Of a stretch of DNA of 44,949 bases, positions 2,024-29,961 are shown one piece after another (the first letter of the stretch is position 1; the number at the start of each line of letters is the position of its first letter). Position numbers and translations under genes: made by a program. The stretch is from Chitinophagaceae bacterium. GTDB taxonomy: Bacteria > Bacteroidota > Bacteroidia > Chitinophagales > Chitinophagaceae. The stretch covers positions 1-44,949 of the forward strand of contig CANJJU010000004.1 in assembly GCA_947474815.1 (NCBI GenBank), written 5' to 3'. The notes beneath the pieces are model-generated. The model was given only the letters and a program-made list of their open reading frames with translations, was not told the origin of the DNA and did not search any database.

Positions 2024-2043
2024 GTACAACAGGTTTGATAAAC

Positions 2044-3474
2044 TTAGCTCTTATTGTTTTTTAGTTTTGTTTGAAGAAGATCATCGAATTGTTTCCAGGT
2101 AAGTTTTTTTCCTATGATTCTTTTTTCTTTGTCAAGCAAAAAAAGTGTGGGTGTTTGAATAACATCATACAACTGACGGAAACTAGGCTTTTGTGCATCG
2201 GTGGTGGCTTTTTCCATTTCCTTGGTTGCATAAACATTGGTCCAGCTACCAATATGATTTTCTTGAATATATTTTACCCAATCTGCTTTTTTATCAGGCT
2301 CTGAAAGGACTGCATAAATTTTCAATCCTTTAGCTTTCCAGGAGGCCCTGTAAATAGAATCTATTCTTGGAACCTCTTCTTTACAGTGCCCACAAGCAGG
2401 GTCCCAAAATATTACAAGTGTGAATTCGGCCTTTAAATCATATAAAGAAATTGTTTTACCAGTGGAATCAATCATCTCTAAATTAGCCGCCTTCTCGCCC
2501 AACAAATTACTCATTTGCATATACGCTCTTCTCGAAATGGTTTCCATTTGCTTTTCATTGAGCCAAGTGCTAACCCCTTTGCTATGGTATTTATTAAACA
2601 GGTGAACAAAAATGGCATCTTGTCCCATGTATTTAGGATTGATGTACTCATCCGTCAGCCAGTTTATTAAAAACTTATACATCTCGGGCGCTGTTCTTGC
2701 TAATAATAATTTATAATCTAAGTCTTTAATGATACTGTCAGGCGCCTGTGGCATTACTTCTCTATAATAGCGTTCTAGTTTTGGTAAAAAGAAGGGAGTG
2801 CGAATAATTCGATCATCCATAAACGTTATACCATCCCAATAATGCGCTTTGTAATAATTATAATTATCCAACGTATCCCTACGTGTCATTGGTTTTTTGA
2901 TAATAATTTCTGGGTCTTTCATGGCATTCAAGAAAAGCGTCATCATTGAAGTTGGATGAGTGGATATAATCCCTTCTCTGTAGTCATTTAGCTCTTTATT
3001 ATACTTGTTATAGTTTTCTAGATGCAATAAGGAGTCTTTTGAATTTGTTGATGCATTATATGCCAGTCTTTCTTTTTGCATCTGACCGCCTTTTGCATTT
3101 ACCACTTGTTGATACTGCTGAAAAAGAATATTTTCTTTAGATCCTTTTATGACAACATTTAATAAATTAGACGAATCCGCATTGATAGAAATGTTTTGCT
3201 CTTTGTCAATAAAAAAATCTACACTTAAGTTCTTGCCTGGAAAAACAATAGAATAAATACCCCCGGGAAGCTTTCTGTCTCCTTTAAATATCGCTTCTCC
3301 CTTATTATTAATAAAGGTGGAATCTTCGATATTCATATTTTTTCCCATGTGATAAGTCAAGTAGGCTAACCCCGATTTATAACTCGGTGTTTGTAGGGTT
3401 ACCATAAATCCCTGACCATTGGAACAAGTAAATGCCACTAGCAAAATAATAAAAAAGAGTAACTGTTTTTTCAT
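2044..3474 (-). CDS. TlpA-like thioredoxin-fold protein with DUF4369/DUF5106-type N-terminus
   Basis: Exported thiol-disulfide protein of 476 aa. Signal peptide MKKQLLFFIILLVAFTCSNG, then an N-terminal beta-rich DUF4369-like region (about 25-125), a helical DUF5106-like middle (about 150-320), and a C-terminal AhpC/TSA-type thioredoxin domain (about 335-476). The redox motif is FWDPACGHCKEEVP, i.e. CGHC, with the cis-proline segment IQTPTLFLLD. This architecture is common in Bacteroidota and is thought to reduce periplasmic disulfides. It is the first gene of a likely two-gene operon with the parvulin gene. A TAnnTTTG element (TACATTTG) lies on the minus strand at 3498-3491, but I see no good -33 TTG at the proper spacing. 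Confidence 0.87.
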   Translation of the reverse strand: MKKQLLFFIILLVAFTCSNGQGFMVTLQTPSYKSGLAYLTYHMGKNMNIEDSTFINNKGEAIFKGDRKLPGGIYSIVFPGKNLSVDFFIDKEQNISINADSSNLLNVVIKGSKENILFQQYQQVVNAKGGQMQKERLAYNASTNSKDSLLHLENYNKYNKELNDYREGIISTHPTSMMTLFLNAMKDPEIIIKKPMTRRDTLDNYNYYKAHYWDGITFMDDRIIRTPFFLPKLERYYREVMPQAPDSIIKDLDYKLLLARTAPEMYKFLINWLTDEYINPKYMGQDAIFVHLFNKYHSKGVSTWLNEKQMETISRRAYMQMSNLLGEKAANLEMIDSTGKTISLYDLKAEFTLVIFWDPACGHCKEEVPRIDSIYRASWKAKGLKIYAVLSEPDKKADWVKYIQENHIGSWTNVYATKEMEKATTDAQKPSFRQLYDVIQTPTLFLLDKEKRIIGKKLTWKQFDDLLQTKLKNNKS

Positions 3475-3564
3475 AGCTTAAAAATGTAAACAAATGTATT
3501 TAAAATAGTGGGGTTGATAAAAAATATCCGCCTCCGCCACACTAAAATTACAAATCATTAACAA

Positions 3565-3595
3565 TTGACTTTTCTTATTTTAAAGGTTAATTTTG
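3565..3595 (+). promoter_or_regulatory. Bacteroidota-type promoter of rlmD
   Basis: TTG at 3565-3567 and TAATTTTG at 3588-3595, separated by 20 nt, match the Bacteroidota consensus TTG-N17-23-TAnnTTTG. The predicted start of transcription falls within a few bases of the GTG start codon at 3600, so the mRNA would be leaderless or nearly so. Confidence 0.55.
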
Positions 3596-3599
3596 TGCT

Positions 3600-5021
3600 G
3601 TGAGAAAAAAACAAAAAAATCCGCTGTTAGAAAATATCTTGATTACAGATTATGCAGCTGAAGGAAAGGCGCTGGTTCGCCACGATGGAAAAGTAATCTT
3701 TGTATCAGGAGCTGTTCCCGGCGATACAGTTAATATTCAACTCGTTAAAAATAAAAAGGATTGGGCCGAAGGGCGCGCCGTGAAAATTGTTCATCCAGCC
3801 GCTGATCGATTGGAAGCTTTTTGTAAGCACTTTGGAACATGTGGAGGCTGTAAGTGGCAAATGCTTCCTTATGATAAACAGTTGCAATTCAAACAACAAG
3901 AGGTTGAGCAAAACCTTAAACGAATTGGTAAATTGGAGCTTCCAACAATTTTGCCAATAGTGGGCTCCGATGCAACCACTCAATATAGAAATAAACTAGA
4001 ATTCACCTTTAGCAATAAACGCTTTTTAACAAACGAGGAAATCAATGTAGAAGGTGTTGTTATTCAACAAGACGCTTTAGGATATCATGTTCCTAGAATA
4101 TTTGATAAGGTGATCGATATTTTTGAGTGTCACTTAATGGACCCGGTTAACAATTCGATTAGAAACACCATAAGAGATTTTGCAAAAGCAAAGAGTTTTT
4201 CTTTCTATGATATAAAAGAACACACTGGGTGGCTAAGGAATATTATTGTAAGATACTGCACCACTGGCGAGCTAATGATTAATATTTGTCTAAATTATGA
4301 AGACGAACAAAATAGAAAATTATTATTAGATCACTTGCTCCAACAGGTGCCCTCAATTACTACTTTATTGTATACCATTAATCCGAAATGGAATGATAGC
4401 ATTTACGATCTAACGCCACAAGTATATCACGGTAAAGGTTACCTGACAGAAAAACTAGATGAGTTTGAATTTATTATTAGTCCAAAGTCTTTTTTTCAAA
4501 CCAATACAAAACAAGCAGAAAAACTATACACTATCACGCGCGATTTCGCCGGACTCACGGGAAAAGAAATTGTATACGATCTCTATTGTGGTACGGGAAG
4601 CATTGGAATATTTGTAAGCAAGCTGGCTAAAAAAATAATCGGAGTGGAAGTGATTGAAGAGGCGATTGAAGATGCAAAGAAAAATGCAGCACTCAATCAT
4701 ATTGAACATGCTCATTTCGTAGCAGGGGATGTGATTAAAATTTGTAATGATGATTTTTTTACTCAGCACGGAAGACCCGATGTGGTTATCACTGACCCGC
4801 CCAGAGCGGGTATGCATGAAAAGCTTGTATTAAAACTACTTGAAATGGAAGCGCCGAAAATTGTATATGTAAGCTGTAATACGGCTACACAAGCAAGAGA
4901 CCTTGCACTACTTTCAGAAAAGTATATGGTAGAAAAAGTACAGCCAGTAGACATGTTTCCCCATACACATCATATAGAATGTGTGGTGTTGCTTAGATTA
5001 AAAACAACGATTAACGCCTAA
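3600..5021 (+). CDS. rlmD: 23S rRNA (uracil-C5)-methyltransferase RlmD
   Basis: SAM-dependent methyltransferase of the RumA/TrmA family, expected to methylate U1939 (E. coli numbering) in 23S rRNA. An N-terminal TRAM domain (about 8-65) is followed by the iron-sulfur cysteines C75, C81 and C84 in CKHFGTCGGCKW. The Rossmann methyltransferase has VYDLYCGTGSIGIF near 325-338, the TDPPRAGM motif near 398, and catalytic Cys426 in VYVSCNTAT. 473 aa is a normal length. The start is a GTG; the residues after it (LLENILITDYAAEGKAL) align with the usual RlmD N-terminus, so a later start is unlikely. It heads an operon with two rhomboids and an EEP protein. A paralogous assignment such as RlmC is possible but less likely. 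Confidence 0.9.
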   Translation: MRKKQKNPLLENILITDYAAEGKALVRHDGKVIFVSGAVPGDTVNIQLVKNKKDWAEGRAVKIVHPAADRLEAFCKHFGTCGGCKWQMLPYDKQLQFKQQEVEQNLKRIGKLELPTILPIVGSDATTQYRNKLEFTFSNKRFLTNEEINVEGVVIQQDALGYHVPRIFDKVIDIFECHLMDPVNNSIRNTIRDFAKAKSFSFYDIKEHTGWLRNIIVRYCTTGELMINICLNYEDEQNRKLLLDHLLQQVPSITTLLYTINPKWNDSIYDLTPQVYHGKGYLTEKLDEFEFIISPKSFFQTNTKQAEKLYTITRDFAGLTGKEIVYDLYCGTGSIGIFVSKLAKKIIGVEVIEEAIEDAKKNAALNHIEHAHFVAGDVIKICNDDFFTQHGRPDVVITDPPRAGMHEKLVLKLLEMEAPKIVYVSCNTATQARDLALLSEKYMVEKVQPVDMFPHTHHIECVVLLRLKTTINA

Positions 5022-5030
5022 CTTTATACT

Positions 5031-5720
5031 ATGGAATTTAGAAATCGATTTGGAGACACTTCTCCCATTGTACTAAATCTGATTATTATTAACGCATTGG
5101 CATTTTTTGCACAAACTGCTTTTGGTGGATTATCAGATTTCAATAGCGTGAATGATTTGTTTGCATTACATCATTACAAATCCGAAATGTTCAGACCATA
5201 CCAACTCGTTACGCATATGTTTATGCATGGAAGCTTCTTTCATTTGTTGTTTAATATGCTTGGGTTGTGGATGTTTGGAAATATTCTTGAAAAAGTTTGG
5301 GGGTCTAAAAGATTTCTTACTTTTTTCCTGATATGTGGAATCGCTGCAGGAATAGCTCAAATGATTAATTATTCAGTTGATTATTATCAAGTAGATCATG
5401 CCTTACTAGATGCGTCTACCATGATACAATATCAAGAAGCAATGCGCTTAAACTGTACAATTGGCGCCTCTGGAGCAGTAATGGGAATTTTAGCTGCCTA
5501 TGGTTATTTATTCCCCAACACACAATTATTTATTATGCCAATCCCCTTTCCTATTAAAGCAAAGTGGGCTATTACCGGTATTATAGCACTAGATATATTT
5601 GGTGGAATTTCAAAAGCAGCCAATGATAATGTGGCACATTTTGCTCATGTTGGTGGAGCCTTGATAGGGTTGCTGATTGTGCTATATTGGAACAAAAAAA
5701 ACAAACAAACTTTTTATTAA
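5031..5720 (+). CDS. Rhomboid intramembrane serine protease (active)
   Basis: Six-helix rhomboid protease of 229 aa in the inner membrane, cleaving transmembrane substrates. The catalytic dyad is complete: Ser147 in the GASGAVMG motif (145-152) and His206 in FAHVGGALIG. His66 and Asn75 of the conserved loop-1/helix-2 HxxxxHxxxN region (HGSFFHLLFN, 66-75) are also present. It starts 9 nt after rlmD and is followed by a second, inactive rhomboid 25 nt downstream. Tandem rhomboids recur in Bacteroidota; the two products may form a complex or divide substrate binding and cleavage, but that is inference. Confidence 0.92.
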   Translation: MEFRNRFGDTSPIVLNLIIINALAFFAQTAFGGLSDFNSVNDLFALHHYKSEMFRPYQLVTHMFMHGSFFHLLFNMLGLWMFGNILEKVWGSKRFLTFFLICGIAAGIAQMINYSVDYYQVDHALLDASTMIQYQEAMRLNCTIGASGAVMGILAAYGYLFPNTQLFIMPIPFPIKAKWAITGIIALDIFGGISKAANDNVAHFAHVGGALIGLLIVLYWNKKNKQTFY

Positions 5721-5745
5721 AAGTGTTTTAAAACATTAACCATCG

Positions 5746-6678
5746 ATGGGAGAATCAGACAGATACCTAGAATATAAAAACATAAAAAGAAGCAGTCGAT
5801 TTTTATTAGGGCAGGATAACAATGCACTAGTAGGACTCTTTACACTAATTGCAATTTTCTTTCTATTGCTGCTTACCCTACAAGTAGGATATTATTTTTA
5901 CCAACAAACTCCCGCCCTTTTTTATAGTCAAGTTATTCAATCGTTCTCTTTGCCCAATTCCTTTACAGAGCTTTCTGAAAAACCATGGACTTTATTAACG
6001 TATATGTTTAGCGATAATAGCGAAAACTTAATGCGCATTGTAAGCAATATGCTTTGGTTGTGGGCATTTGGAGTAGTATTACAAGGCATGGGAGGTAATA
6101 ATAAAATAATCCCTATCTATATTTATGGCGGACTATTGGGGGGGCTGTTTTTTATTGTTGCTAATTATTTTTTCCACTCCGAAAATACAATGTCATTGTT
6201 AGGTGCCAATACCGGCGTAATGGCCGTTGCTGTTGCCGCAACCACACTACAACCAACGCATCGATTTTTCACACACATCAGAAAGGGGGTTCCTATTTGG
6301 GTACTGCTAGTATTATACATATTGATTGATGTTGCCGGCGTTGCAACCATGGGCGCAGCATTTGTTCTGGCTCATCTTGGTGGAGCGGTAGCGGGATTTT
6401 TATTTATTATATTACTTAGACAAGGAAAAGACGGAAGCATTTGGATGAATAGAGGTTATGGTTGGATACTCACTATTTTTACGCCTACTAATATTATTAC
6501 AAATAATAAAAGAGTGAAAAACACGGCAGCAGAAAATAAAATTTTTAGTAAAAAGAATATAATAACACAACAACGAATAGACGAAATATTAGATAAAATA
6601 TCTTCTAAAGGATACGATTTTCTTACTGAAGAGGAAAAAGATGTTCTCAAAAAAGCAGGAGAGGAAGAGAGTTTTTAA
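5746..6678 (+). CDS. Catalytically dead rhomboid homologue with C-terminal cytoplasmic tail
   Basis: A 310-aa rhomboid-fold membrane protein that looks like a pseudoprotease. Where the neighbouring rhomboid has GASGAVMG, this one has GANTGVMA (153-160), so no serine is present. His210 (AHLGGAVAG) and Asn101 (SNMLWLW) are retained, but the loop-1 His is replaced. The tail after the last helix (about 260-310) carries a helical segment with IDEILDKISSKGYDFLTEEEKD, resembling the small DUF6576 module found on Bacteroidota rhomboids. Its close coupling to the active copy suggests a regulatory or substrate-recruiting role similar in principle to iRhoms, though that is only an analogy. Confidence 0.88.
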   Translation: MGESDRYLEYKNIKRSSRFLLGQDNNALVGLFTLIAIFFLLLLTLQVGYYFYQQTPALFYSQVIQSFSLPNSFTELSEKPWTLLTYMFSDNSENLMRIVSNMLWLWAFGVVLQGMGGNNKIIPIYIYGGLLGGLFFIVANYFFHSENTMSLLGANTGVMAVAVAATTLQPTHRFFTHIRKGVPIWVLLVLYILIDVAGVATMGAAFVLAHLGGAVAGFLFIILLRQGKDGSIWMNRGYGWILTIFTPTNIITNNKRVKNTAAENKIFSKKNIITQQRIDEILDKISSKGYDFLTEEEKDVLKKAGEEESF

Positions 6679-6712
6679 TGTTTTTTGATCATTATTAATC
6701 TTAACTTTAAAT

Positions 6713-7843
6713 ATGGCCAAGCCTTTTGCAAGACGTGCTACAAAGACCATATTAATCTGCTGTAATATTATTACAGCCCTGTGTTTGTTTGTTGCTTGCT
6801 ATGGTAATTATTTTAATACCCGCTTCTCTTGGATTACCGGGTTGTTTACCCTCGCTTCTCTTTATTTTTTTATTGTGCTAATTGGTTTTTTATTGTTCTG
6901 GCTTTTTGTAAAGCCCGCTTTTACACTCATAGGTATTCTTGCCCTTGTTATTTGCTGGGCTCCCTTACAACAAACGGTTCAGCTGCGAATTCCAGAGAAG
7001 TTTATATTTAAAAAGAGCGAACTAGGAATACGATTAATGAGCTGGAATGTAGAGCACTTCGATATCATAGAGCATAAAACACATCCCGAGAAAAAACAAC
7101 AAATGCTACAGCTTATCAATGAAATGCAGCCAGACATTGCTTGCTTTCAGGAAATGGTTGCCAGCGATAGCGCCACTCACGCCATCAATTACCTTCCCGA
7201 CTTTTTGACGCAATTAAACATGCCCGATTATTTTTATACCTATAATAAAAAATTAGACTTCGACTCAAAGCATCGATTTGGAATTATCATATTTAGCAAG
7301 CTTCCTATTATAAAAAAAGAAACGGTCATCCTAGATTCAAAAAACTACAATTCTATTTTTCAGTTTGTGGATGTTGTTAAAAACAATGATACGTTCAGGA
7401 TTTTTAATATTCATCTACAATCTCTCAAGTTTAGTGCAGACAACCGGAATTATATCAACGACCCCACCCTAAGCGATGAGACAGATATAGAAAAATCAAA
7501 AAACGTACTTTATAAATTTAAAATAGGGTTTATTAAAAGACGTTTACAAAGTGATTTTATTAAAAAGGTTATTGAACAAAGTCCTTACCCAACAATCGTT
7601 TGTGGAGATTTTAACGACGTGCCTAATAGTTATGCCTACAATACAATTGGCAAGGGGCTGGTAAACTCGTTTACTAAAAAAGGGGCGGGTATTGGAAATA
7701 CATTTAATGGTATTTCGCCTACATTAAGAATTGATAATATTTTTTGTGATAAATCATTTGACATAATGCAATATGGAACTATTAAGAAAAACCTAAGCGA
7801 TCATTTTCCGATAGTTGCCGACTTGGCGCCTAATAAAAATTAA
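6713..7843 (+). CDS. Membrane-anchored endonuclease/exonuclease/phosphatase (EEP) family protein
   Basis: A 376-aa metal-dependent phosphodiesterase-fold protein. Three hydrophobic segments in the first 90 residues anchor it in the membrane. The EEP domain then shows the ordered catalytic motifs MSWNVEHFD (near 110), CFQEM (metal-binding Glu, near 146), FNIHLQS (near 240), GDFND (near 299) and SDHFP (near 362). Family members cleave nucleic acid, phosphoinositide or sphingomyelin phosphodiesters; the sequence does not settle which. It is the last gene of the rlmD-rhomboid operon, 34 nt after the second rhomboid. Confidence 0.85.
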   Translation: MAKPFARRATKTILICCNIITALCLFVACYGNYFNTRFSWITGLFTLASLYFFIVLIGFLLFWLFVKPAFTLIGILALVICWAPLQQTVQLRIPEKFIFKKSELGIRLMSWNVEHFDIIEHKTHPEKKQQMLQLINEMQPDIACFQEMVASDSATHAINYLPDFLTQLNMPDYFYTYNKKLDFDSKHRFGIIIFSKLPIIKKETVILDSKNYNSIFQFVDVVKNNDTFRIFNIHLQSLKFSADNRNYINDPTLSDETDIEKSKNVLYKFKIGFIKRRLQSDFIKKVIEQSPYPTIVCGDFNDVPNSYAYNTIGKGLVNSFTKKGAGIGNTFNGISPTLRIDNIFCDKSFDIMQYGTIKKNLSDHFPIVADLAPNKN

Positions 7844-7947
7844 TCTCCCGCGTCTTTTTCTCTTGAGCACCTTCCGATTCGAATAGACAGCCTTATCTTT
7901 GTATTATAGCAGATAAATAGAATTAGACATTTCTATAAATTTTTCAA

Positions 7948-9456
7948 ATGCCCCTAAGTATTTATAATTCATATACAAGAAAGAAAGAAACCTTCGAGCC
8001 TTTAACGCCCGGACATGTTGGAATGTATGTGTGTGGTCCAACAGTGAGCGGAGAAAGTCACCTCGGACACGCTCGTCCGTACATAGGATTTGATGTAGTA
8101 TACCGATATCTTACTTATAAGAAATTTAAAGTTCGTTACGTACGAAATATTACAGATGCGGGACATTTTGAAGAAGAAGGAAGAGAAGCCGAAGATAAGG
8201 TGGGGAAAAAAGCTCAATTAGAAAAATTAGAGCCAATGGAATTGGTACAAAAATATACCAACCTCTTTCATTGGGCGATGAAACAATTTAATTGCATAGA
8301 ACCAAGCATAGAACCAACCGCTACTGGACATATTGTAGAGCAGATTAACATGATTGAAGAAATCATCAATCAAGGATATGCTTATGTACAAAATGGATCT
8401 GTTTATTTTGATGTGAAAAAATACGCCGCTACGCATGATTATGGGAAACTAAGTGGAAGGGTGATTGATGAATTAATAAATGCCGAATCTCGTGAGGTAA
8501 CTACGCGCACATTAGAGGGGCAAGAAGAAAAAAGAGATACAGCCGATTTCGCTTTGTGGAAATCCGCACCAGCAGAACATTTGATGCGATGGAGAAGTCC
8601 ATGGGGAGAAGGTTTCCCAGGATGGCATATTGAATGTTCGGCCATGGCTACAAAATACTTGGGTGCTTCATTTGATATTCATGGAGGTGGTATGGATCTT
8701 CAGTTTCCTCATCATGAAAGTGAAATTGCACAAAGCACTATTTGTAACCATGTAGCGCCAGTAAAATATTGGATGCACAATAATATGATTACCATCAACG
8801 GAAGAAAGATGGGAAAAAGCTATAACAATGTAATCAAACTAACGGAGTTGTTTAGTGGCAATCACCCTTTGCTTACACAAGCTTTTCATCCTATGACCGT
8901 TCGGTTTTTTATCTTGCAAAGCCATTATCGTAGTCCGCTTGATTTCAGTAGTGAGGCATTGACTTCCAGCGAAAAAGCATTTAAAAGATTATGGGAAGCT
9001 TATGAAATATTGAAACAAATCAATGTTGCCCAAAACACCCAAGCAAAAGATGTTGAACTAGAAGAAAAAGTAAAAAATTGGTTAGGTGAAATGGAGGTGT
9101 TTATGGACGATGATTTTAGTAGTCCGAAAGTATTGGCCAATATGTTTGAAATGGCCCCGATCATTAATTCTATCAAAGATCAACTCATACCCATTAATGC
9201 ACTTAGTAGTGATACATTGTTATTAATGAAAGAGCGTTTTGCTGTTTTTTTAGAGGATATTTTTGGTTTACAAGGAGCAGACGGCACCGACAATAATCAA
9301 CTTAAGTCGGTAATGCAATTGTTAATCGATATTCGAAAAGAAGCAAAGGCTAAGAAAGATTTCGCCACTTCTGATAAAATCAGAATTCAACTAAACGAAA
9401 TGGGCATTGTGCTAAAAGATGAAAAAGACGGAAATACAAGCTGGGGGTTGACTTAG
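7948..9456 (+). CDS. cysS: Cysteinyl-tRNA synthetase
   Basis: Class I aminoacyl-tRNA synthetase that charges tRNA-Cys. The HIGH signature is HLGH (38-41), the KMSKS signature is KMGKS (287-291), and zinc ligands include Cys29 (YVCGPT) and the FPHHESE segment. 502 aa is normal for bacterial CysRS and the C-terminal helical anticodon-binding region is intact. A TAnnTTTG element (TATCTTTG, 7894-7901) lies 46 nt upstream of the ATG. The gene ends 5 nt before the convergent fRMsr gene with no obvious terminator between them. Confidence 0.96.
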   Translation: MPLSIYNSYTRKKETFEPLTPGHVGMYVCGPTVSGESHLGHARPYIGFDVVYRYLTYKKFKVRYVRNITDAGHFEEEGREAEDKVGKKAQLEKLEPMELVQKYTNLFHWAMKQFNCIEPSIEPTATGHIVEQINMIEEIINQGYAYVQNGSVYFDVKKYAATHDYGKLSGRVIDELINAESREVTTRTLEGQEEKRDTADFALWKSAPAEHLMRWRSPWGEGFPGWHIECSAMATKYLGASFDIHGGGMDLQFPHHESEIAQSTICNHVAPVKYWMHNNMITINGRKMGKSYNNVIKLTELFSGNHPLLTQAFHPMTVRFFILQSHYRSPLDFSSEALTSSEKAFKRLWEAYEILKQINVAQNTQAKDVELEEKVKNWLGEMEVFMDDDFSSPKVLANMFEMAPIINSIKDQLIPINALSSDTLLLMKERFAVFLEDIFGLQGADGTDNNQLKSVMQLLIDIRKEAKAKKDFATSDKIRIQLNEMGIVLKDEKDGNTSWGLT

Positions 9457-9461
9457 TGCTT

Positions 9462-9935
9462 TTATAGTTGTATCAATGCAACTATTTCTTCTAAATATTG
9501 TTGATCGATTTCATCAAAAAAATTAAGCGACTCGCTATCTACATCTAATACGCCTATCACCTCATTTTTGTGTTTCATTGGAACCACTATTTCTGATTTT
9601 GACAAACTACTACAAGCGATGTGTCCCGGAAATTGTTCCACATCAGGCACAATCAATGTTTTAGCGGATAACCAAGCCGCACCACACACGCCTCGCCCTT
9701 TTTGTATTCTAGTACAAGCAACTGGTCCCTGAAACGGTCCTAATACCAACTCGTTTTTTTTCACTAGATAAAAGCCTACCCACAACCAGCCAAATTGCTC
9801 TTTCAAAGAAGCCGCAATATTGGCCAAATTAGCAATCAAATCCAATTCACCTTCCAGTAATGCTTTTATTTGTGGAATCAAGGATTCATATTGTGCAACC
9901 TTTGAACCTTTTGCGATAATTAAGTCATCTGCCAT
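9462..9935 (-). CDS. msrC: Free methionine-(R)-sulfoxide reductase (GAF domain)
   Basis: Single GAF-domain enzyme that reduces free methionine-(R)-sulfoxide, protecting the methionine pool from oxidation. The three cysteines characteristic of fRMsr are present: Cys74 (GPVACTRI), Cys84 (GRGVCGAAW) and Cys108 (GHIACSSLS). The pocket motifs IVVPM and GVLDVDSE are also conserved. 157 aa is typical. It follows recX on the same strand with a 1-nt gap and is very probably co-transcribed with it. Confidence 0.9.
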   Translation of the reverse strand: MADDLIIAKGSKVAQYESLIPQIKALLEGELDLIANLANIAASLKEQFGWLWVGFYLVKKNELVLGPFQGPVACTRIQKGRGVCGAAWLSAKTLIVPDVEQFPGHIACSSLSKSEIVVPMKHKNEVIGVLDVDSESLNFFDEIDQQYLEEIVALIQL

Positions 9936-9936
9936 G

Positions 9937-10404
9937 TTATAATGATTTCAACTTTTCAAAAATAAGCGAGGATTCGTATCCCTTTTGGGTTAAGTAGGAT
10001 TGAAGCTTTTTTTTCTTTGAAAAAATATTTTTTTCAGTTCTTAGCGCTTTTAGTTTATCATCAAAAAGCTTCTCAAATGTACTACTGTATTCGTTTTCAT
10101 CAATCGATAAAAGCGCCTTTTTAACACAATACTCACTTACCTGTCGTTGCTTGAGTTCGTATTTAATCTTGGTTTTACCCCAATGATTTACCCTGAATTT
10201 ACCCCCCGCAAAAGCAATGGCATATCGTTCTTCGTTAAGATAATTTTCTTCTATCATTTGTATTATTAGTCCCTCTACCTGATCCTTATACAACCCGAAA
10301 CTGTATAACTTCTCTTTTACTTCTGTGTGACTCCTCTCCTGATAAGCACAATAATGTCTTATTTTTTGAAGGGCTCTGTCTATTCCTATGTTTAATGGAT
10401 TCAT
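9937..10404 (-). CDS. recX: Regulatory protein RecX
   Basis: Small helical protein that modulates RecA filament growth. Three-helix repeats are visible: ALQKIRHYCAYQERSHTEV, then EGLIIQMIEENYLNEERYA, and a third repeat near the C-terminus ending LIFEKL. The frame opens with a TTG at 10416, but the ATG at 10404 (MNPLNIG) is the more natural start. A TACATTTG element on the minus strand at 10421-10414 lies just upstream. recA itself is not in the window; recX is grouped with msrC here. Confidence 0.85.
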   Translation of the reverse strand: MNPLNIGIDRALQKIRHYCAYQERSHTEVKEKLYSFGLYKDQVEGLIIQMIEENYLNEERYAIAFAGGKFRVNHWGKTKIKYELKQRQVSEYCVKKALLSIDENEYSSTFEKLFDDKLKALRTEKNIFSKKKKLQSYLTQKGYESSLIFEKLKSL

Positions 10405-10545
10405 ATTAACAATCAAATGTAGAATAAAGATGACAAATCGCTCTGTTGAAAAGAACGAAATAAATGATTTCTGTACAACTGTTATTAATTATAAAAGTCT
10501 GAAATACAATTGTGTAAAAAACCTTCTTATATGAGGACAAATATC

Positions 10546-10577
10546 TTGGTTTCATTAACAGCAATCTTTTATCTTTG
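10546..10577 (+). promoter_or_regulatory. dnaN promoter
   Basis: TTG at 10546-10548 and TATCTTTG at 10570-10577, separated by 21 nt, fit the Bacteroidota promoter consensus; the ATG of dnaN follows 20 nt later. Confidence 0.6.
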
Positions 10578-10597
10578 GCTCCTATTAAATCTTACTT

Positions 10598-11713
10598 ATG
10601 AAGTTTATCGTTTCCTCTTCGGCATTGCTGAAACAATTACAACAAATTGGTGGCGTTATCAACACCAATACCGTTTTACCTATATTGGAAGACTTTTTAT
10701 TTGAAATCGAAAAGAACAAATTAACGGTGGTTGCTACAGACCTTGAAACCGTAATGAAAGTTCATCTTGATATTGAAGCAAAAGACAGCGGTAAGGTTTG
10801 TATCCCTGCGAAAATATTAATGGATTCACTAAAAAATATTGCTGAGCAACCGCTCACTTTTAATATTGACAAGAGCTTTGGTATTGAAATCACCAGTGAT
10901 AATGGGAAGTATAAATTGATGGGAGAAAATCCAGACAATTTTCCACGCGAACCCAAAGCGGATGATGCAACAGGCTTCACGATGACTTCTTCGGCACTAG
11001 TGACGGCAATTAACAAAGCACTCTTCGCTGTTAGTAGCGACGATCTTCGTCCGGCTATGACAGGGGTGTTTTTTGAGCTGGATAAAAAAGGAATCACTTT
11101 TGTTGCAACAGATGCACACCGTCTCGTTCGTTACACACGCAAGGATGTTAAGTGTCCACAAAAAGATTCTTTTATTGTTCCTAAAAAACCTCTCAACCTT
11201 TTAAAGGGGTCTTTGCCAGATAATGATGATGAACTAACGATTTCTTATAATAGCAATCATCTTTTTGTAGTACATGGTGGAACCGAGCTTGTGTGTAGAT
11301 TAATTGATGCAAGATTTCCAGACTACAAAGTGGTTATTCCTACCGATAATCCATATAAGATGATTGTAAATAAGGGTGATTTTCAAAGTGCCCTTCGTCG
11401 AGTAAGTGTATTTAGCAATAAAAGCACCAATCAAATTGCACTTACCATCAGTGGAAATAAATTGCAATTAGCCGCACAAGATGTTGATTTTAGCAACGAA
11501 GGAAATGAGCGTATGGCTTGCCAGTATGATGGTGAAGATTTACAAATTGCTTTTAATGCAAAATTTTTGATAGAAATGCTAAATGGTGCAGAAACGCCAG
11601 AAATCATCATGGAGCTTAGCACATCTACGAAAGCAGGTATTATTAAACCAAGCGAACAACTAGAAGAAGAAGAGTTGTTGATGTTGGTAATGCCACTAAT
11701 GTTAAATAGTTAA
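10598..11713 (+). CDS. dnaN: DNA polymerase III beta sliding clamp
   Basis: Ring-shaped processivity clamp for the replicative polymerase. 371 aa, starting MKFIVSSSALLKQLQQIGGV, with three successive clamp domains of about 120 residues. Characteristic segments include FVATDAHRLVRY in domain 2 and the C-terminal LVMPLMLN, which corresponds to the usual MPMR/MPM-type clamp terminus. It is monocistronic, with its own promoter and a strong terminator downstream. dnaA is not adjacent, unlike the classic dnaA-dnaN arrangement of other phyla. Confidence 0.97.
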   Translation: MKFIVSSSALLKQLQQIGGVINTNTVLPILEDFLFEIEKNKLTVVATDLETVMKVHLDIEAKDSGKVCIPAKILMDSLKNIAEQPLTFNIDKSFGIEITSDNGKYKLMGENPDNFPREPKADDATGFTMTSSALVTAINKALFAVSSDDLRPAMTGVFFELDKKGITFVATDAHRLVRYTRKDVKCPQKDSFIVPKKPLNLLKGSLPDNDDELTISYNSNHLFVVHGGTELVCRLIDARFPDYKVVIPTDNPYKMIVNKGDFQSALRRVSVFSNKSTNQIALTISGNKLQLAAQDVDFSNEGNERMACQYDGEDLQIAFNAKFLIEMLNGAETPEIIMELSTSTKAGIIKPSEQLEEEELLMLVMPLMLNS

Positions 11714-25226: not shown

Positions 25227-25730
25227 ATGAAGCCCAATAAAGAACAATTGATTGATTTGTTTGATTTACAACCTCATCCTGAAGGGGGCTGGTATAAGGA
25301 ATCATACAAAAGCGTCGAACAAATAACAGCCAATGCCCTCCCTAATCGATTTAATGACAATCGTTTTTTTTCAAGTGCCATCTACTTTTTATTAGAACGA
25401 GGAAACTTTTCTGCATTTCATAGAATTAAAAGTGATGAATGTTGGCATTTTTATGCGGGGGAAACATTATTAATCTATATAATAAATGAAAGCGGAGACC
25501 TAGAGGTGGTTTCCTTGGGTTCAAATATTACCAAAGGAGAGTTTTTTCAATATGTTGTTCCTGCTAATTGTTGGTTTGCAAGTGTTCCTGCTCCTAATAG
25601 CGAGTATTGTTTTGTTGGTTGTACAGTTGCACCCGCATTTGACTTTAAAGATTTTGAACTTGCTAATGCAAAAGAGTTATCGGTAATCTACCCTCAACAC
25701 CTGGATCTAATTTATAGTTTGTGTAGATAA
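25227..25730 (+). CDS. Cupin protein, DUF985 family
   Basis: A 167-aa single-domain cupin beta-barrel. The DUF985 pattern is visible: PHPEGGWYKESYKS near the start, SSAIYFLLERGNFSAFHRIKSDECWHFYAGE in the first cupin motif, and YCFVGCTVAPAFDFKDFELA near the end. Members likely bind a sugar or metal ligand but have no agreed function. It begins 20 nt after the carbonic anhydrase gene, probably in the same transcript. The next gene has its own promoter. Confidence 0.8.
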   Translation: MKPNKEQLIDLFDLQPHPEGGWYKESYKSVEQITANALPNRFNDNRFFSSAIYFLLERGNFSAFHRIKSDECWHFYAGETLLIYIINESGDLEVVSLGSNITKGEFFQYVVPANCWFASVPAPNSEYCFVGCTVAPAFDFKDFELANAKELSVIYPQHLDLIYSLCR

Positions 25731-25779
25731 TCTTAGTATAGAGATGCCTTATTGTTTGTTGAAAACTAAAGCATAAGTT

Positions 25780-25812
25780 TTGATGTTTTAATTGCTATAC
25801 TTTTTATCTTTC
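25780..25812 (+). promoter_or_regulatory. Promoter of the SET/ATP-grasp operon
   Basis: TTG at 25780-25782 and TATCTTTC at 25805-25812 (one mismatch to TAnnTTTG) with a 22-nt spacer, 30 nt before the ATG. A second weaker candidate, CACCTTTG, ends 2 nt before the ATG. Confidence 0.45.
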
Positions 25813-25842
25813 AACATTAATAATTTATCAATTCACCTTTGT

Positions 25843-26349
25843 ATGCACGGTTCGTCAACCTTAGGCGCTCAAAAAATATTAACCACCCATTCTGTTGCAT
25901 CTGTGGTGTATAATAATATCAGTAAGCAAAAAGAGTTGCGTGCTAATAATAGGTTTAAAGCAGGAGATATTATAATACCTTTTTCTGCAGGAGAAACACT
26001 AATAGAGCCTACCTATCTAACTGTGCAAACGGGAGAAAATGAACACATAACACTTGTTCCCGAGTTTTTACAATACACCAACCATAGCTGTAGACCGACG
26101 GTTTTTTTTGATACCACTAATATGGTGTTGTTGGCGCTCAGAGATATTGAAATAATGGAGGAGTTAACTTTTTTTTATCCCTCTACTGAATTAAATATGT
26201 CTGATTCCTTTGACTGTTTTTGTGGAGAAAGCGAGTGTCTTACACATATCAAGGGCGCGGCCTTTATGTCAATTGATATTTTAGCAAAATATAGATTAAC
26301 AGATTTTATTAATAGCAAGATTCACATTAAGAAACAACCAAAAGATTAA
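25843..26349 (+). CDS. Stand-alone SET-domain protein
   Basis: A 168-aa SET-fold protein, predicted SAM-dependent lysine (or amine) methyltransferase. The core motifs are NHSC (80-83) and EELTFFY (106-112, with the catalytic-type Tyr112), and a post-SET zinc motif CFCGESEC (Cys125, Cys127, Cys132). The N-terminal GxG SAM-binding motif expected before NHSC is not evident; the corresponding region reads KELRANNRFKAGDIII. It may therefore be a divergent or inactive partner of the intact SET domain in the fusion gene two genes downstream. The ATG at 25843 is chosen over an upstream TTG at 25792. Its stop overlaps the next start (TAATG), indicating translational coupling. Confidence 0.8.
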   Translation: MHGSSTLGAQKILTTHSVASVVYNNISKQKELRANNRFKAGDIIIPFSAGETLIEPTYLTVQTGENEHITLVPEFLQYTNHSCRPTVFFDTTNMVLLALRDIEIMEELTFFYPSTELNMSDSFDCFCGESECLTHIKGAAFMSIDILAKYRLTDFINSKIHIKKQPKD

Positions 26350-27515
26350 TGAATCAAGCAGCCTCTTCTAATAATAATCTTTCGTTGCCTTCCGATCGCG
26401 CTTTAAAAGTGTGGGTGTTGGCACCCTCTGTTGAGTCTAATGACGAAAACATTGATTACTATTATGATTTCTCTCAAAGCATTGCGGAATACACAAAGGT
26501 GTTTGATCAATTACAGCTTCCTTGGAAATGGCAGCCAGTAAATATGAAAACCTATATTGATATTGTAGAGGAAATCGAAACAGAAAAAAACGAAGGAAAC
26601 TGTTTGCCAATTGTTTTAAATCTTTGTGATGGCGATGAAGTCAATGGAACACCGGGCGTGTCGGTAGTAAGGTTACTTGAAGAGAAAGACATTGTTTACA
26701 CAGGAGCGGATGAATATTTTTATACTATTACCACCTCAAAAATCCCCATGAAAAAAGCGTTTGACGACGCAAATATTCCCAATGCATCTTGGGCAGCAAT
26801 ACATGAAGAGGGTGTTAATATTGAAATGCTTTTGAAGAAGGTTGGAAGCCCTATGATAATTAAACCGTCTGTTTCAGGAGGAAGTATGGGGGTGGGTATA
26901 AAAAATGTAGTGGAAACAAAAGAACAGTTAACCGCATTATTAAAAGACCTGTTTGCAGGCTATCGCGGATGGAATCTATCGGCAGACGGCATGATTGCAG
27001 AAGAGTTTATTAAAGGGCCTGAGTTTACCGCTTTTATTAGCGGATCTTATGATCGACCAAACGATGCAGTAATCTATACGCCTGTTGAAAGGGTGTTTCA
27101 TGAATCATTGCCAGAAACAGAAAAGTTTTTATCCTTTGATAGGCTCTGGGAAATTTATGAAACCGAATCTGCTATGCCCGATGGGGGAAGCTTTTATGAA
27201 TATAGAATACCCGACGAGGAATTAATAGAATCAATTAAAAAATTAAGTTGGGATGCTTATTGTGCAACGAAAGGAAGGGGTTATACTAGAATAGATATTA
27301 GAATGGATGCGACAACGAAGAAAATGTTTGTATTAGAAGTAAATGCTCAATGTGGTATTAGCGAAGATGAAAACTATACATCAATAGGTGCTATTTTAAA
27401 AGTATCAGAAAAAAGTTTTACTCAGCTTGTAGAAGAAATTATTTTAGATGCGCTTAAAAGGGCTTCATTAAAGAAACTATCTTATCTTAACAAAAGTAAT
27501 GAGGCACGGGCATAA
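26349..27515 (+). CDS. ATP-grasp ligase, D-Ala-D-Ala ligase-like
   Basis: A 388-aa ATP-grasp carboxylate-amine ligase with the Ddl-type layout. NLCDGDEVNGTPG (91-103) occupies the place of the Ddl N-domain loop. TSKIPMKKAF and the ATP-binding lysine with its glycine loop KPSVSGGSMGVG (172-183) follow, then EEF (218-220), the metal-ligand segments RIDIRMD (314-320) and LEVNAQCG (329-336). The final GxxPG substrate loop of true Ddl is altered, and the insert at 250-290 is unlike Ddl, so a role in cell-wall D-Ala-D-Ala is unlikely. It overlaps the SET gene by one base and lies 23 nt before the ATP-grasp-SET fusion. Substrates are unknown. Confidence 0.8.
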   Translation: MNQAASSNNNLSLPSDRALKVWVLAPSVESNDENIDYYYDFSQSIAEYTKVFDQLQLPWKWQPVNMKTYIDIVEEIETEKNEGNCLPIVLNLCDGDEVNGTPGVSVVRLLEEKDIVYTGADEYFYTITTSKIPMKKAFDDANIPNASWAAIHEEGVNIEMLLKKVGSPMIIKPSVSGGSMGVGIKNVVETKEQLTALLKDLFAGYRGWNLSADGMIAEEFIKGPEFTAFISGSYDRPNDAVIYTPVERVFHESLPETEKFLSFDRLWEIYETESAMPDGGSFYEYRIPDEELIESIKKLSWDAYCATKGRGYTRIDIRMDATTKKMFVLEVNAQCGISEDENYTSIGAILKVSEKSFTQLVEEIILDALKRASLKKLSYLNKSNEARA

Positions 27516-27538
27516 TGCAGATTTACTCTTTTAATTAA

Positions 27539-29026
27539 ATGCTAACAAAAAAAAATAACAATACGTCTTCTATAGCGCTTCCGAGTGGGAAGAACGGCGA
27601 AATACTTAGGGTGTGTGTGTTACAACCAGACTACTCTACCTCTAGCGTTGATTATCAACATTACGATCCACCAAGAAATTTGTCTTCTCTATTAGATAAT
27701 GTAATGGTTGATCATGTGTTTTTAAATAAACTAACCACCTACAAACAGCTTAAAGATTGTAGTAAGAAAAAGTATGATATTTATGTAAATCTATGTGAGG
27801 GTTATTTGGAGTGGGATGTTCCGTCTATTGATGTTATTTATTATCTCGAGCTTTTAAACCTTCCCTTTACAGGACCCTCAAGTATATTATACGATCCACC
27901 AAAAGAGTTAATGAAATATGTTGCCTATACACAAGGGGTTGCTACGCCTGCGTATGCGCTTATTGAAAAGGTTGACGATATAACAAACGCAAGTGTCACC
28001 CTACATTATCCATTGTTTGTAAAGCCTGCTAAAGCGGGCGACAGCTTAGGAATTGATGATTGCTCTTTGGTTGAAAATAAAGAGGGTTTGATAAAAAAAG
28101 TTGAGTCAATTATTGATGAATATGGTCCATTATTGGTAGAAGAGTATATTGATGGTAGAGAGTTTACGGTAATGTTAGCAGCAAATCCAACAGAAAAAAA
28201 AGGCGTAACAGTATTTAGACCCGTTGAATATATTTTTCCAGCAGGAAGACAGTTTAAAACATATGCGCTTAAAACTTCTGAATTACATCCCAACGCAAAC
28301 GTCCCTGTAGAAAATGGAGATTTGTGTGATCAATTAAAAATTGCTGCAGAAAATATTTTCAAGGGTTTTGGAGGTGTTGGTTATGCAAGGCTAGATTTTA
28401 GAATGGACAAAGAGGGGCTGTTGTTTTTTCTTGAAATCAATTTCACTTGTTCTGTTTTTTATTCTGAAGGTTATGAGGGGTCGGCCGATCATATTCTAAA
28501 AAATGACGGAACGGGTCAACAACAATTTTTGCATATGATTATTGTGGAGGGGATGACTCGTCATCAGCAGAAACAAAAATTATATAGCATGCGCGGAAAT
28601 GCAATTGCGGGCTATGGTATTTATGCCAATAGAGACATTGCAGTTAATGAGGTGATTTTTAAAGGTGAGGAGCGGCCTCAACGAATGGCAACAAAATCTT
28701 ACATTAATAATAACTGGGGCACTAAAGAAATAGAAAACTTTAAAAAATACGCTTATCCTGTTAGCAATGAGGTTTTTTTATTGTGGGATGAAAACCCCGC
28801 CGAATGGGCACCACAAAACCATAGTTGTGATCCCAACACCGGTTATGTAGGATTAGATGTTGTTGCGTTAAGATCAATAAAAAAAGGGGAAGAGTTAACC
28901 TTGTATTATGCTGATTTTTTAGACGAAAATATGGAGCCTTTTAATTGCTCTTGTGGAAGCAAAAACTGTAAGGGGCTTATTACGGGCACCACAGGAAACT
29001 CTGTTACCTTAAGAGAAAGCAAGTAG
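27539..29026 (+). CDS. ATP-grasp ligase fused to a SET domain
   Basis: A 495-aa two-domain protein. Residues 1-340 form a Ddl-like ATP-grasp ligase: NLCEGYLEWDVPS (84-96), KPAKAGDSLG (162-171), EEYIDGREFT (201-210), RLDFRMD (284-290) and LEINFTCS (298-305). Residues about 350-480 form a SET domain with the SAM motif GYGIYA (358-363), NHSCDPN (427-433), EELTLYY (451-457) and the post-SET zinc motif CSCGSKNC (470-477). All SET signature motifs are intact, in contrast to the stand-alone SET protein upstream. The fusion implies that ligation of an amino group and methylation act on the same substrate or in sequence. The biological product is not known to me. Confidence 0.85.
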   Translation: MLTKKNNNTSSIALPSGKNGEILRVCVLQPDYSTSSVDYQHYDPPRNLSSLLDNVMVDHVFLNKLTTYKQLKDCSKKKYDIYVNLCEGYLEWDVPSIDVIYYLELLNLPFTGPSSILYDPPKELMKYVAYTQGVATPAYALIEKVDDITNASVTLHYPLFVKPAKAGDSLGIDDCSLVENKEGLIKKVESIIDEYGPLLVEEYIDGREFTVMLAANPTEKKGVTVFRPVEYIFPAGRQFKTYALKTSELHPNANVPVENGDLCDQLKIAAENIFKGFGGVGYARLDFRMDKEGLLFFLEINFTCSVFYSEGYEGSADHILKNDGTGQQQFLHMIIVEGMTRHQQKQKLYSMRGNAIAGYGIYANRDIAVNEVIFKGEERPQRMATKSYINNNWGTKEIENFKKYAYPVSNEVFLLWDENPAEWAPQNHSCDPNTGYVGLDVVALRSIKKGEELTLYYADFLDENMEPFNCSCGSKNCKGLITGTTGNSVTLRESK

Positions 29027-29039
29027 ATTTTTTGTTCCC

Positions 29040-29417
29040 TTATTCTTTTTCGGCTCTAATAATTAAGCACCAGTCTTTTTCTAGATATAGATATCCATAA
29101 TCATAACAATAATAATATATTGATCCTTTTGGATTTATATATTGATGAGTATGGTATTTGAATCGATAGCCTTGTTGAATTAATCTTTCCTTTTTAACCT
29201 TGCTCATTTCTTCGTTTTCTACGATTAACGATTCTAGTATTCTTCTGTTTTTACTAAGTGTATGGTTAATGTTTCTTACCAAGTTGTTTGAGGGCGCCTT
29301 TAATTGGTTGTTATAACTATTTCTACAATAATCATTACAAAAGCGCTTGTCTGTTCTGCCTCTAATTGATTTATCACACGCAATACACTGTTTGATGGTA
29401 TTTGTTTGTACAATCAT
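29040..29417 (-). CDS. Small zinc-finger protein
   Basis: A 125-aa protein with an N-terminal CxxC...CxxxC zinc finger: Cys11, Cys14, Cys27 and Cys31 in CIACDKSIRGRTDKRFCNDYCRNSYN. This resembles short treble-clef or MYM-like fingers seen in many Bacteroidota hypotheticals that may bind DNA or RNA. The rest is basic, then rich in aromatic residues (YHTHQYINPKGSIYYYCYDYGY). It converges on the ATP-grasp-SET fusion gene with a 13-nt gap and is on the opposite strand, so it is probably not part of that operon. Confidence 0.65.
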   Translation of the reverse strand: MIVQTNTIKQCIACDKSIRGRTDKRFCNDYCRNSYNNQLKAPSNNLVRNINHTLSKNRRILESLIVENEEMSKVKKERLIQQGYRFKYHTHQYINPKGSIYYYCYDYGYLYLEKDWCLIIRAEKE

Positions 29418-29613: not shown

Positions 29614-29961
29614 ATGTACTCATTAAGAAACAAGGTTCAATTAATTGGAAACCTAGGTAAGACTCCCGAAATACGAAATGCTGATTCGGGTAAAAAACTA
29701 GTGAAGTTTTCTATAGCGACCAATGAAATGTATACCAATCAGAAGGGTGAAAAAGTAAAAGAAACACAATGGCACAATGTTGTTGCCTGGGGAAAGTTGG
29801 CAGATATTGCCGAAAAGTATCTTTCTAAAGGAAGCGAAGTGGCTGTTGAGGGAAAACTTATTACCAAAGACTATACAGATAAAGAGGGTAATAAAAAATA
29901 CATTACGGAGGTGCAGGTAAACGAATTGCTTTTATTGGGTGGTAAGGCGGCTAATGCTTAG
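29614..29961 (+). CDS. ssb: Short single-stranded DNA-binding protein
   Basis: OB-fold SSB of 115 aa. The start MYSLRNKVQLIGNLGKTPEIR, the core FSIATNEM, WHNVVAWGKLADIAEKYLSKGSEVAVEGKL and VQVNELLLLG are all typical. It ends right after the OB fold and lacks the flexible linker and acidic DDIPF-type tip that recruits partners in main SSBs. It may therefore be a secondary SSB paralogue, for example active in competence or repair, with the full-length SSB elsewhere. It stands alone on the plus strand between two minus-strand genes. Confidence 0.9.
   Translation: MYSLRNKVQLIGNLGKTPEIRNADSGKKLVKFSIATNEMYTNQKGEKVKETQWHNVVAWGKLADIAEKYLSKGSEVAVEGKLITKDYTDKEGNKKYITEVQVNELLLLGGKAANA

Follow-up and report, generated by a model that had tools for sequence, protein, structure and literature searches.

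A compact operon in the genome of a Chitinophagaceae bacterium encodes a stand-alone SET protein (SET1), an ATP-grasp ligase (AG) whose predicted fold is that of the D-alanine–D-alanine ligase (Ddl), and a fusion of a second such ligase domain with a second SET domain (FUS). The three genes form one co-inherited unit, and their products conserve the ATP-grasp residues of the ligases and the NHSC motif, catalytic-position tyrosine and post-SET cysteines of SET domains. The operon may well encode the core enzymes of a pathway to a small, methylated, peptide-like metabolite, an interpretation that we hold with about even confidence, and the product of that pathway is probably exported. The window, i.e., the whole stretch of 44,949 nucleotides (nt) that was analyzed, is contig C4 of a genome of 1.9 Mb that is 98.2% complete. 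The operon consists of the following features:

25843..26349, plus strand: SET1, stand-alone SET protein, 168 amino acids (aa) from the ATG at 25843, stop codon at 26347–26349
26349..27515, plus strand: AG, ATP-grasp ligase of predicted Ddl fold, 388 aa
27539..29026, plus strand: FUS, fusion of ATP-grasp and SET, 495 aa
27602..28573, plus strand: ATP-grasp part of FUS, residues about 22–345, the span aligned to Ddl structures
28610..28993, plus strand: SET and cysteine-rich post-SET part of FUS, residues 358 to about 485

A sequence-only reading of this DNA had described three closely packed plus-strand genes, and the open reading frame (ORF) listing confirmed the coordinates: SET1 and AG overlap by 1 nt, the final base of the SET1 stop codon being the first of AG, and 23 nt separate AG from FUS. 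An in-frame TTG at 25792 is an alternative start of SET1. The composition SET, ATP-grasp, and ATP-grasp plus SET, with Ddl-like ligases, was likewise recovered by Pfam, where SET1 (37.5 bits, cut-off 22.4) and residues 358–457 of FUS (37.7 bits) matched SET (PF00856), and AG (53.7 bits, cut-off 24) and residues 133–301 of FUS (69.0 bits) matched Dala_Dala_lig_C (PF07478). The observation made in that reading is confirmed; its interpretation is partly supported.

In the proposed pathway, AG and the ligase half of FUS would each activate one carboxylate, via an acyl phosphate, for the formation of a single amide bond, so the version found in the window would yield a short peptide-like compound containing at most two such bonds. 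The two SET domains would use S-adenosylmethionine (SAM) to methylate an amine or a thioether, either in the building blocks or in the product, and within FUS one ligation step would be coupled to one methylation step. In most carriers of the same genus, a companion protein resembling ABC exporters would move the product across the membrane. Folds and residues suggest the ligation and methylation reactions, whereas we infer the order of steps, the small-molecule substrate, and export. More tentatively, and with less than even confidence, the system could represent a widespread and previously undescribed class of exported natural products, whose members are built by Ddl-fold ligases paired with SET methyltransferases that act on small molecules, and served by a dedicated transporter of the PF13748 type. 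No account of a system combining SET with ATP-grasp or with a D-alanine–D-alanine ligase was found in the literature searched, most subscription papers lying outside that search, which agrees with the earlier statement that no pathway of this composition has been characterized. Because every enzyme fold involved is known, the system is placed with the ATP-grasp small-peptide pathways and not in a new category.

Co-inheritance within the genus and a fourth gene

Among 36 genomes of the same genus (the own genome and 35 others), FUS was present in 22 and AG in the identical 22. The remaining 14 genomes, including 10 with a completeness of 90% or more, yielded none of the three genes nor the fourth gene described below. 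The identical distribution of FUS and AG (22 both, 14 neither) therefore is more than chance. SET1 occurred in 20 of the 22 FUS carriers and was missing in G020 (67% complete) and in G016; in three genomes (G002, G019, G025) it was located on another contig than FUS. FUS was split over two contig pieces in G003 and cut at a contig end in G028. The trio thus co-occurs in related genomes, but as a whole unit the three-gene composition proved too narrow, since usually a fourth, transporter-like gene belongs to it. This gene was found in 19 of the 22 carriers, immediately 3' of FUS; the three without it are the window genome, G008, and G028, where the contig breaks off within FUS. It codes for a membrane protein of approximately 300 residues with a match to ABC_membrane_3 (PF13748; 160.5 bits in locus L053); a nucleotide-binding domain was absent from the Pfam matches, and the protein is ABC-exporter-like without an ATPase. 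In 23 genomes from other families of the same order neither FUS nor the fourth gene was detected at the thresholds used, and two of these genomes (G043, G048) had a weaker SET1 match.

The ligase domains

The AlphaFold model of FUS (mean predicted local distance difference test score, pLDDT, 89.2) had chain 8evy_A (DdlB) as best structural match, with a Z score of 30.6 and a root-mean-square deviation of 2.6 over 304 residues, and the AG model (pLDDT 89.5) likewise had 8evy_A as top Foldseek match. Both ligase domains are thus predicted to adopt the Ddl fold with ATP-grasp catalytic residues; the ATP-grasp lysine and the ExN motif were each conserved in all 24 aligned AG sequences and in 31 of 32 FUS sequences. 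These features are shared with the Ddl/Van family, from which AG and FUS differ by an identity of only about 20%, by their pairing with or fusion to SET, and by family scores of about one third of the cut-offs (best AG score 80.1 versus 243; best FUS score 82.1 versus 245.65). Moreover, the genome encodes its own separate Ddl (L003:1396-2376). Alignment with this protein showed that the ATP-grasp core is kept, and that the N-terminal GGxSxE and the NTVPG (NTxPG) segments are replaced in both AG and FUS. In Ddl enzymes the GGxSxE and NTxPG segments bind D-Ala. At the position of NTxPG following ExN, AG and FUS have an N-x-x-C motif, its cysteine being present in 32 of 32 FUS and 23 of 24 AG sequences. 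Ordinary D-Ala-D-Ala synthesis by AG or FUS, which the sequence-only reading had named as one of the outcomes that would undo it, is unlikely from these sequence comparisons because of the low Ddl scores, the replaced segments, and the separate Ddl in the genome. Both ligases thus carry a near-invariant cysteine three residues past the ExN asparagine, where the own Ddl has NTVPG.

Among functionally characterized ATP-grasp systems, bacilysin BacD-type pathways also employ stand-alone ligases for amide bond formation, a reaction that is predicted here. BacD was a weak match of the AG profile (32.7 bits) and is distant from AG in sequence, and to our knowledge such small-peptide pathways contain no SET enzyme. 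MysD, the ligase of mycosporine-like amino acid synthesis, is a Ddl-like ATP-grasp enzyme that serves a protective small molecule; mycosporine core genes were not recognized beside the loci read, although no search for MysD or for those genes was made.

The SET domains

SET domains are class V methyltransferases. In that of the window FUS, the GxG motif, NHSC, Tyr457, and Cys470, Cys472, and Cys477 are all present. Across the 32 FUS sequences, GxG was conserved in 25, NHSC in 28, the catalytic-position tyrosine in 31, and the three post-SET cysteines in all. In SET1, NHSC, the catalytic-position tyrosine and the post-SET cysteines were invariant in all 24 sequences.

A SET1 profile compared to the sequences in the PDB matched BurB best (83.6 bits, next match 48.0), as did a search with the window SET1 as single sequence (2.4e-10 versus 7.4e-4 for the next match). 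According to the accessible parts of two publications (PMC7496086, PMC12542666), to which all statements on BurB refer, this enzyme of the malleicyprol/dimethylsulfoniopropionate (DMSP) pathway converts free methionine to S-methylmethionine, and all natural-product methyltransferases found before BurB belonged to class I or III (PMC7496086). The earlier assumption that a SET domain implies methylation of a lysine-type amine is therefore unneeded, as the closest solved relative of SET1 acts on a free amino acid. The own genome contains two further SET genes, L196:1453-1839 (contig C13) and L197:1480-1887 (contig C33). L196, the one used as control, matched SETD7 and a viral histone-lysine SET protein and did not match BurB; a BurB match is therefore not given by just any bacterial SET protein. 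Both additional proteins are small SET proteins that lack the post-SET cysteines.

SET1 resembles BurB as a small SET protein encoded in a biosynthesis-like operon, and 20 of the 24 SET1 sequences share with it an S-T-E motif after the catalytic-position tyrosine. It differs from BurB by having NHSC instead of LHSC, by lacking matches to the BurB SAM-binding loop (Gln37–Ala44) and to His72 (PMC12542666), and by its association with ATP-grasp ligases, which the accessible text of both papers does not mention for BurB. Since methionine is held by BurB through main-chain contacts (PMC12542666), the substrate of SET1 cannot be read from its residues.

Distribution and architecture across phyla

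Of 296 genomes drawn across the phylum, 35 (own included) matched FUS at 1e-20, with full-length matches in the own genome and only 14 others and ligase-only relatives in the rest. Ddl-like genes of other families in the phylum (L038–L052) left the SET part uncovered, had different neighborhoods, and were set aside. FUS was found in 22 of 200 Gemmatimonadota genomes at 1e-90 (G357 and G360 were known beforehand) and in 2 of 388 Cyanobacteria, one being the search centre G353; a search for AG in Cyanobacteria returned 1 of 291 genomes, again the search centre. A profile scan of species genomes confirmed at least 548 related loci, the best 80 of which are mostly from metagenome-assembled genomes (MAGs) and represent Bacteroidota, Gemmatimonadota, Acidobacteria, Verrucomicrobia, a deltaproteobacterium, Cyanobacteria, Chlorobium, Chloroflexi, Planctomycetota, and others. 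From L127 on, the loci kept contain only the ATP-grasp half, the exceptions being AG in L132 and an isolated match to SET1 in L145. Phage or plasmid cargo was rejected after null searches: among viral contigs 30 stretches fitted a pattern and none was confirmed, and neither plasmids (at 1e-20) nor phages (at 1e-15) gave a match.

For the analysis of locus architecture, a companion gene was scored when located within 3.5 kb of FUS. In the named-genome set (L073–L126), 50 of 54 loci carried a full FUS, the loci skipped being L104, L108, and L116 with partial FUS and L118 without SET; AG was near FUS in 41 of the 50, SET1 in 28, and the PF13748 protein in 15. The set of G-coded genomes plus the window had FUS in 21 of 21 loci, accompanied by AG in 16, SET1 in 17, and the PF13748 protein in 12, and the Gemmatimonadota set (19 loci fetched of the 22 matches) had FUS in 19 of 19, AG in 14, SET1 in 1, and the PF13748 protein in 2. 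These sets overlap in some genomes, as L053/L073, L072/L117, and L121/L191 are, judged by length, the same contigs. Gene order varies, being AG-FUS-TMD-SET1 (TMD, transmembrane domain) in L067 and L178 and FUS-SET1-AG in L106, and these changes therefore favor a functional linkage of the genes. All four genes are present in a named strain, Lacibacter cauensis (L084).

A quick tree of 86 FUS sequences, used for its two-clade split only, separated 53 from 33 sequences with 100% support in the Shimodaira–Hasegawa-like approximate likelihood-ratio test. Within the larger clade AG was found on the locus in 50 of 53 cases (a fragment in L095) and was missing in L068, L155, and L100, the contig of the latter beginning at the gene. 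The nearest sequence to the window FUS in the tree is that of L107, a Chitinophagaceae MAG, with 79% identity. Pairwise distances over 41 loci were correlated between AG and FUS (0.888), AG and SET1 (0.704), and FUS and SET1 (0.702), with 0 of 2000 permutations as high, although shared ancestry and the double occurrence of some genomes (e.g., L053/L073) inflate these values.

Gene neighborhoods of distant copies

Exporter-type genes of several families, among them the PF13748 gene, EamA (L155), and HlyD (L118), recur beside FUS loci; neighbors were analyzed by Pfam on representatives, namely L070 (Chlorobium-type), L178 (MatE cluster), L130 (Chloroflexi), and L088 (TMEM164). In the Chlorobium-type loci L070–L072, a complete ABC exporter separates FUS from a third SET gene. 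A MatE-cluster gene lies 85–150 nt upstream of AG in L179, L181, and L186, the L178 member of this cluster itself being located about 5 kb from the operon. In Chloroflexi (L130–L149), ligase-only FUS relatives repeatedly adjoin MacB/FtsX and HlyD export genes, and a family-4 glycosidase-like gene was also observed beside them. A TMEM164-family membrane protein gene (L088:11449-12171) follows FUS in L088, L092, L093, and L120, and a gene of this family precedes the ligase-only relative in a gammaproteobacterial MAG (L129).

Biosynthetic-type neighbors were seen in individual loci. In L118, from the cyanobacterial MAG UBA8803, the stretch 358-10993 encodes a nonribosomal peptide synthetase (NRPS)-like protein with adenylation, PRMT5-like methyltransferase, carrier, and thioesterase parts, followed by a FUS relative without SET, and further an ectoine-synthase-family gene, two AG copies, a cyclic nucleotide monophosphate (cNMP)-binding protein, and an HlyD protein; this stretch is a candidate gene cluster of its own. 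L106 (Brasilonema) has a FemAB_like gene between SET1 and AG. In L155 (8344-11440) an AdoMet_dc-family gene ends 4 nt before the divergent FUS, downstream of which a cupin and an EamA-type gene are found. The neighbors in L069 include an FGase gene, a glutathione-synthetase-like ATP-grasp gene and, as second gene after FUS, a MATCAP-family peptidase. In none of the loci read was a recurring gene for a substrate protein seen beside the operon. Each single locus is weak, but together the distant gene contexts tilt toward a small molecule over a protein tag.

Nature of the product and alternative explanations

Several observations weigh against the proposed pathway. AG was seen on none of the 33 loci in the smaller FUS clade, some of which are short contigs, and a two-bond product is therefore not general. 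Of the 19 Gemmatimonadota loci, just 1 has SET1 close to FUS. The transporter role, which we assign to the PF13748 protein from its family match, falls to a protein without ATPase that the window genome lacks. The NRPS, FemAB, ectoine-synthase, and AdoMet_dc neighbors occur in one locus each, and several FUS loci showed no biosynthetic-type neighbor among the genes read. Individual FUS sequences also depart from the consensus: the GxG motif is altered in 7 of 32 (L069, L070, L071, L117, L119, L121, and L155, of which L070, L071, and L117 are close kin), the catalytic-position Tyr is replaced by Phe in one sequence, and the first residue of ExN is Asp in one. The FUS SET domain taken alone is about as near to KMT2A (52.2 bits, whole domain) as to BurB (59.5 bits, partial). 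Finally, SET1 lacks GxG at the expected place, the letters G-x-G occurring in 1 of 24 sequences (L081) within the region examined and the site being occupied by an S-L-H-A-like segment, and it may therefore not be a normal SAM enzyme. SET1 could instead serve FUS as a zinc-binding scaffold or as a regulator, with methylation left to FUS alone, an arrangement otherwise compatible with the proposed pathway. The scarcity of SET1 in Gemmatimonadota would fit this role, as would G016, listed as 100% complete and carrying FUS, which gave no SET1 match at 1e-20. Given the invariant NHSC, tyrosine, and post-SET cysteines of all 24 SET1 sequences, we regard a non-catalytic SET1 as somewhat unlikely.

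The sequence-only reading had left open whether the operon makes a peptide or tags a protein, and the gene contexts of distant copies tilt this choice to a small molecule. As a protein modification system, the ligases would attach amino acids, one or several, to a protein of the cell in the manner of TTL/TTLL enzymes or RimK, and the SET domains would methylate lysine of that protein or of the attached residues. Protein lysine is the best-known target of SET methyltransferases, KMT2A lies almost as near to the FUS SET domain as BurB does, and the MATCAP-family peptidase in L069 would suit such a system. According to the accessible part of its description (PMC3520985), the eukaryotic protein TTLL12 combines, like FUS, a SET-like and an ATP-grasp-type domain in one polypeptide; there, however, the domain order is opposite, the ligase domain is of the TTL type, and the SET-like domain is reported to lack the critical Asn and to show no histone methylation in vitro, whereas the window FUS keeps the canonical SET residues. 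With the resemblance of SET1 to BurB, the lack of a recurring substrate-protein gene beside the operon, the exporter and NRPS-type neighbors of distant loci, and the co-occurring membrane protein, which would be odd for a cytosolic protein tag, this explanation is unlikely. A special case of the proposed small-molecule pathway is a sulfonium or betaine route to a compatible solute or signal, in which SET1 would make S-methylmethionine or a similar onium amino acid and the ligases would join another amino acid to it. The likeness of SET1 to BurB, including the S-T-E motif, and the AdoMet-decarboxylase and ectoine-synthase-family neighbors in single cyanobacterial loci point this way; the unmatched SAM loop and His72 of BurB and a methionine site whose main-chain contacts leave the substrate unreadable do not, and no DMSP-type aminotransferase or dehydrogenase was among the Pfam-scanned neighbors, for which no systematic search was made. 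We consider this specific chemistry quite unlikely. Van-type synthesis of an alternative dipeptide or depsipeptide for peptidoglycan would agree with the listed nearest folds, all of them Ddl/Van ligases, but is very improbable for a genome that retains its own Ddl and for ligases in which Ddl segments near the substrate are replaced; moreover, we know of no part of SET domains in wall synthesis.

If such a widespread class of natural products exists, SET chemistry on metabolites would be a recurrent bacterial strategy beyond the single case of BurB, and SET domains tied to amide ligases in many genomes would demonstrate a wider small-molecule use of SET enzymes. The defined gene set, present in L. 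cauensis, offers a handle for finding the compound. It also serves as a warning against taking every bacterial SET gene to encode a methyltransferase of lysine or histones.

Flanking genes of the operon

The sequence-only reading had assigned the operon its own promoter, for which a scan restricted to sigma-70-type sites offered no support (13 sites versus a mean of 12.5 in shuffled sequence), and had raised the possibility of a small precursor ORF. No precursor peptide gene, such as accompanies the ligase of graspetides (ribosomally synthesized peptides modified by ATP-grasp enzymes), was apparent among the ORFs of at least 20 aa at 25730–29100 of the window; those reaching outside the trio encode 22–27 aa and lie at 25817–25900 (minus strand), 25839–25913 (plus strand), and 29032–29100 (plus strand, cut by the scan edge). 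Concerning the flanking genes, the upstream cupin was verified (Cupin_5/DUF985, PF06172), whereas the downstream "zinc finger" amounted to a sub-threshold treble-clef match (DUF2116, 19.3 bits versus 26.8). The flanking carbonic-anhydrase and cupin genes were rejected as parts of the operon, as they adjoin it in near relatives and are replaced elsewhere. The small treble-clef-like protein (29040–29417, minus strand) is accompanied by an SSB-like gene (29614–29961, plus strand), and this pair is also found beside the operon in several relatives, e.g., L057, L073, L074, L107, and L113.

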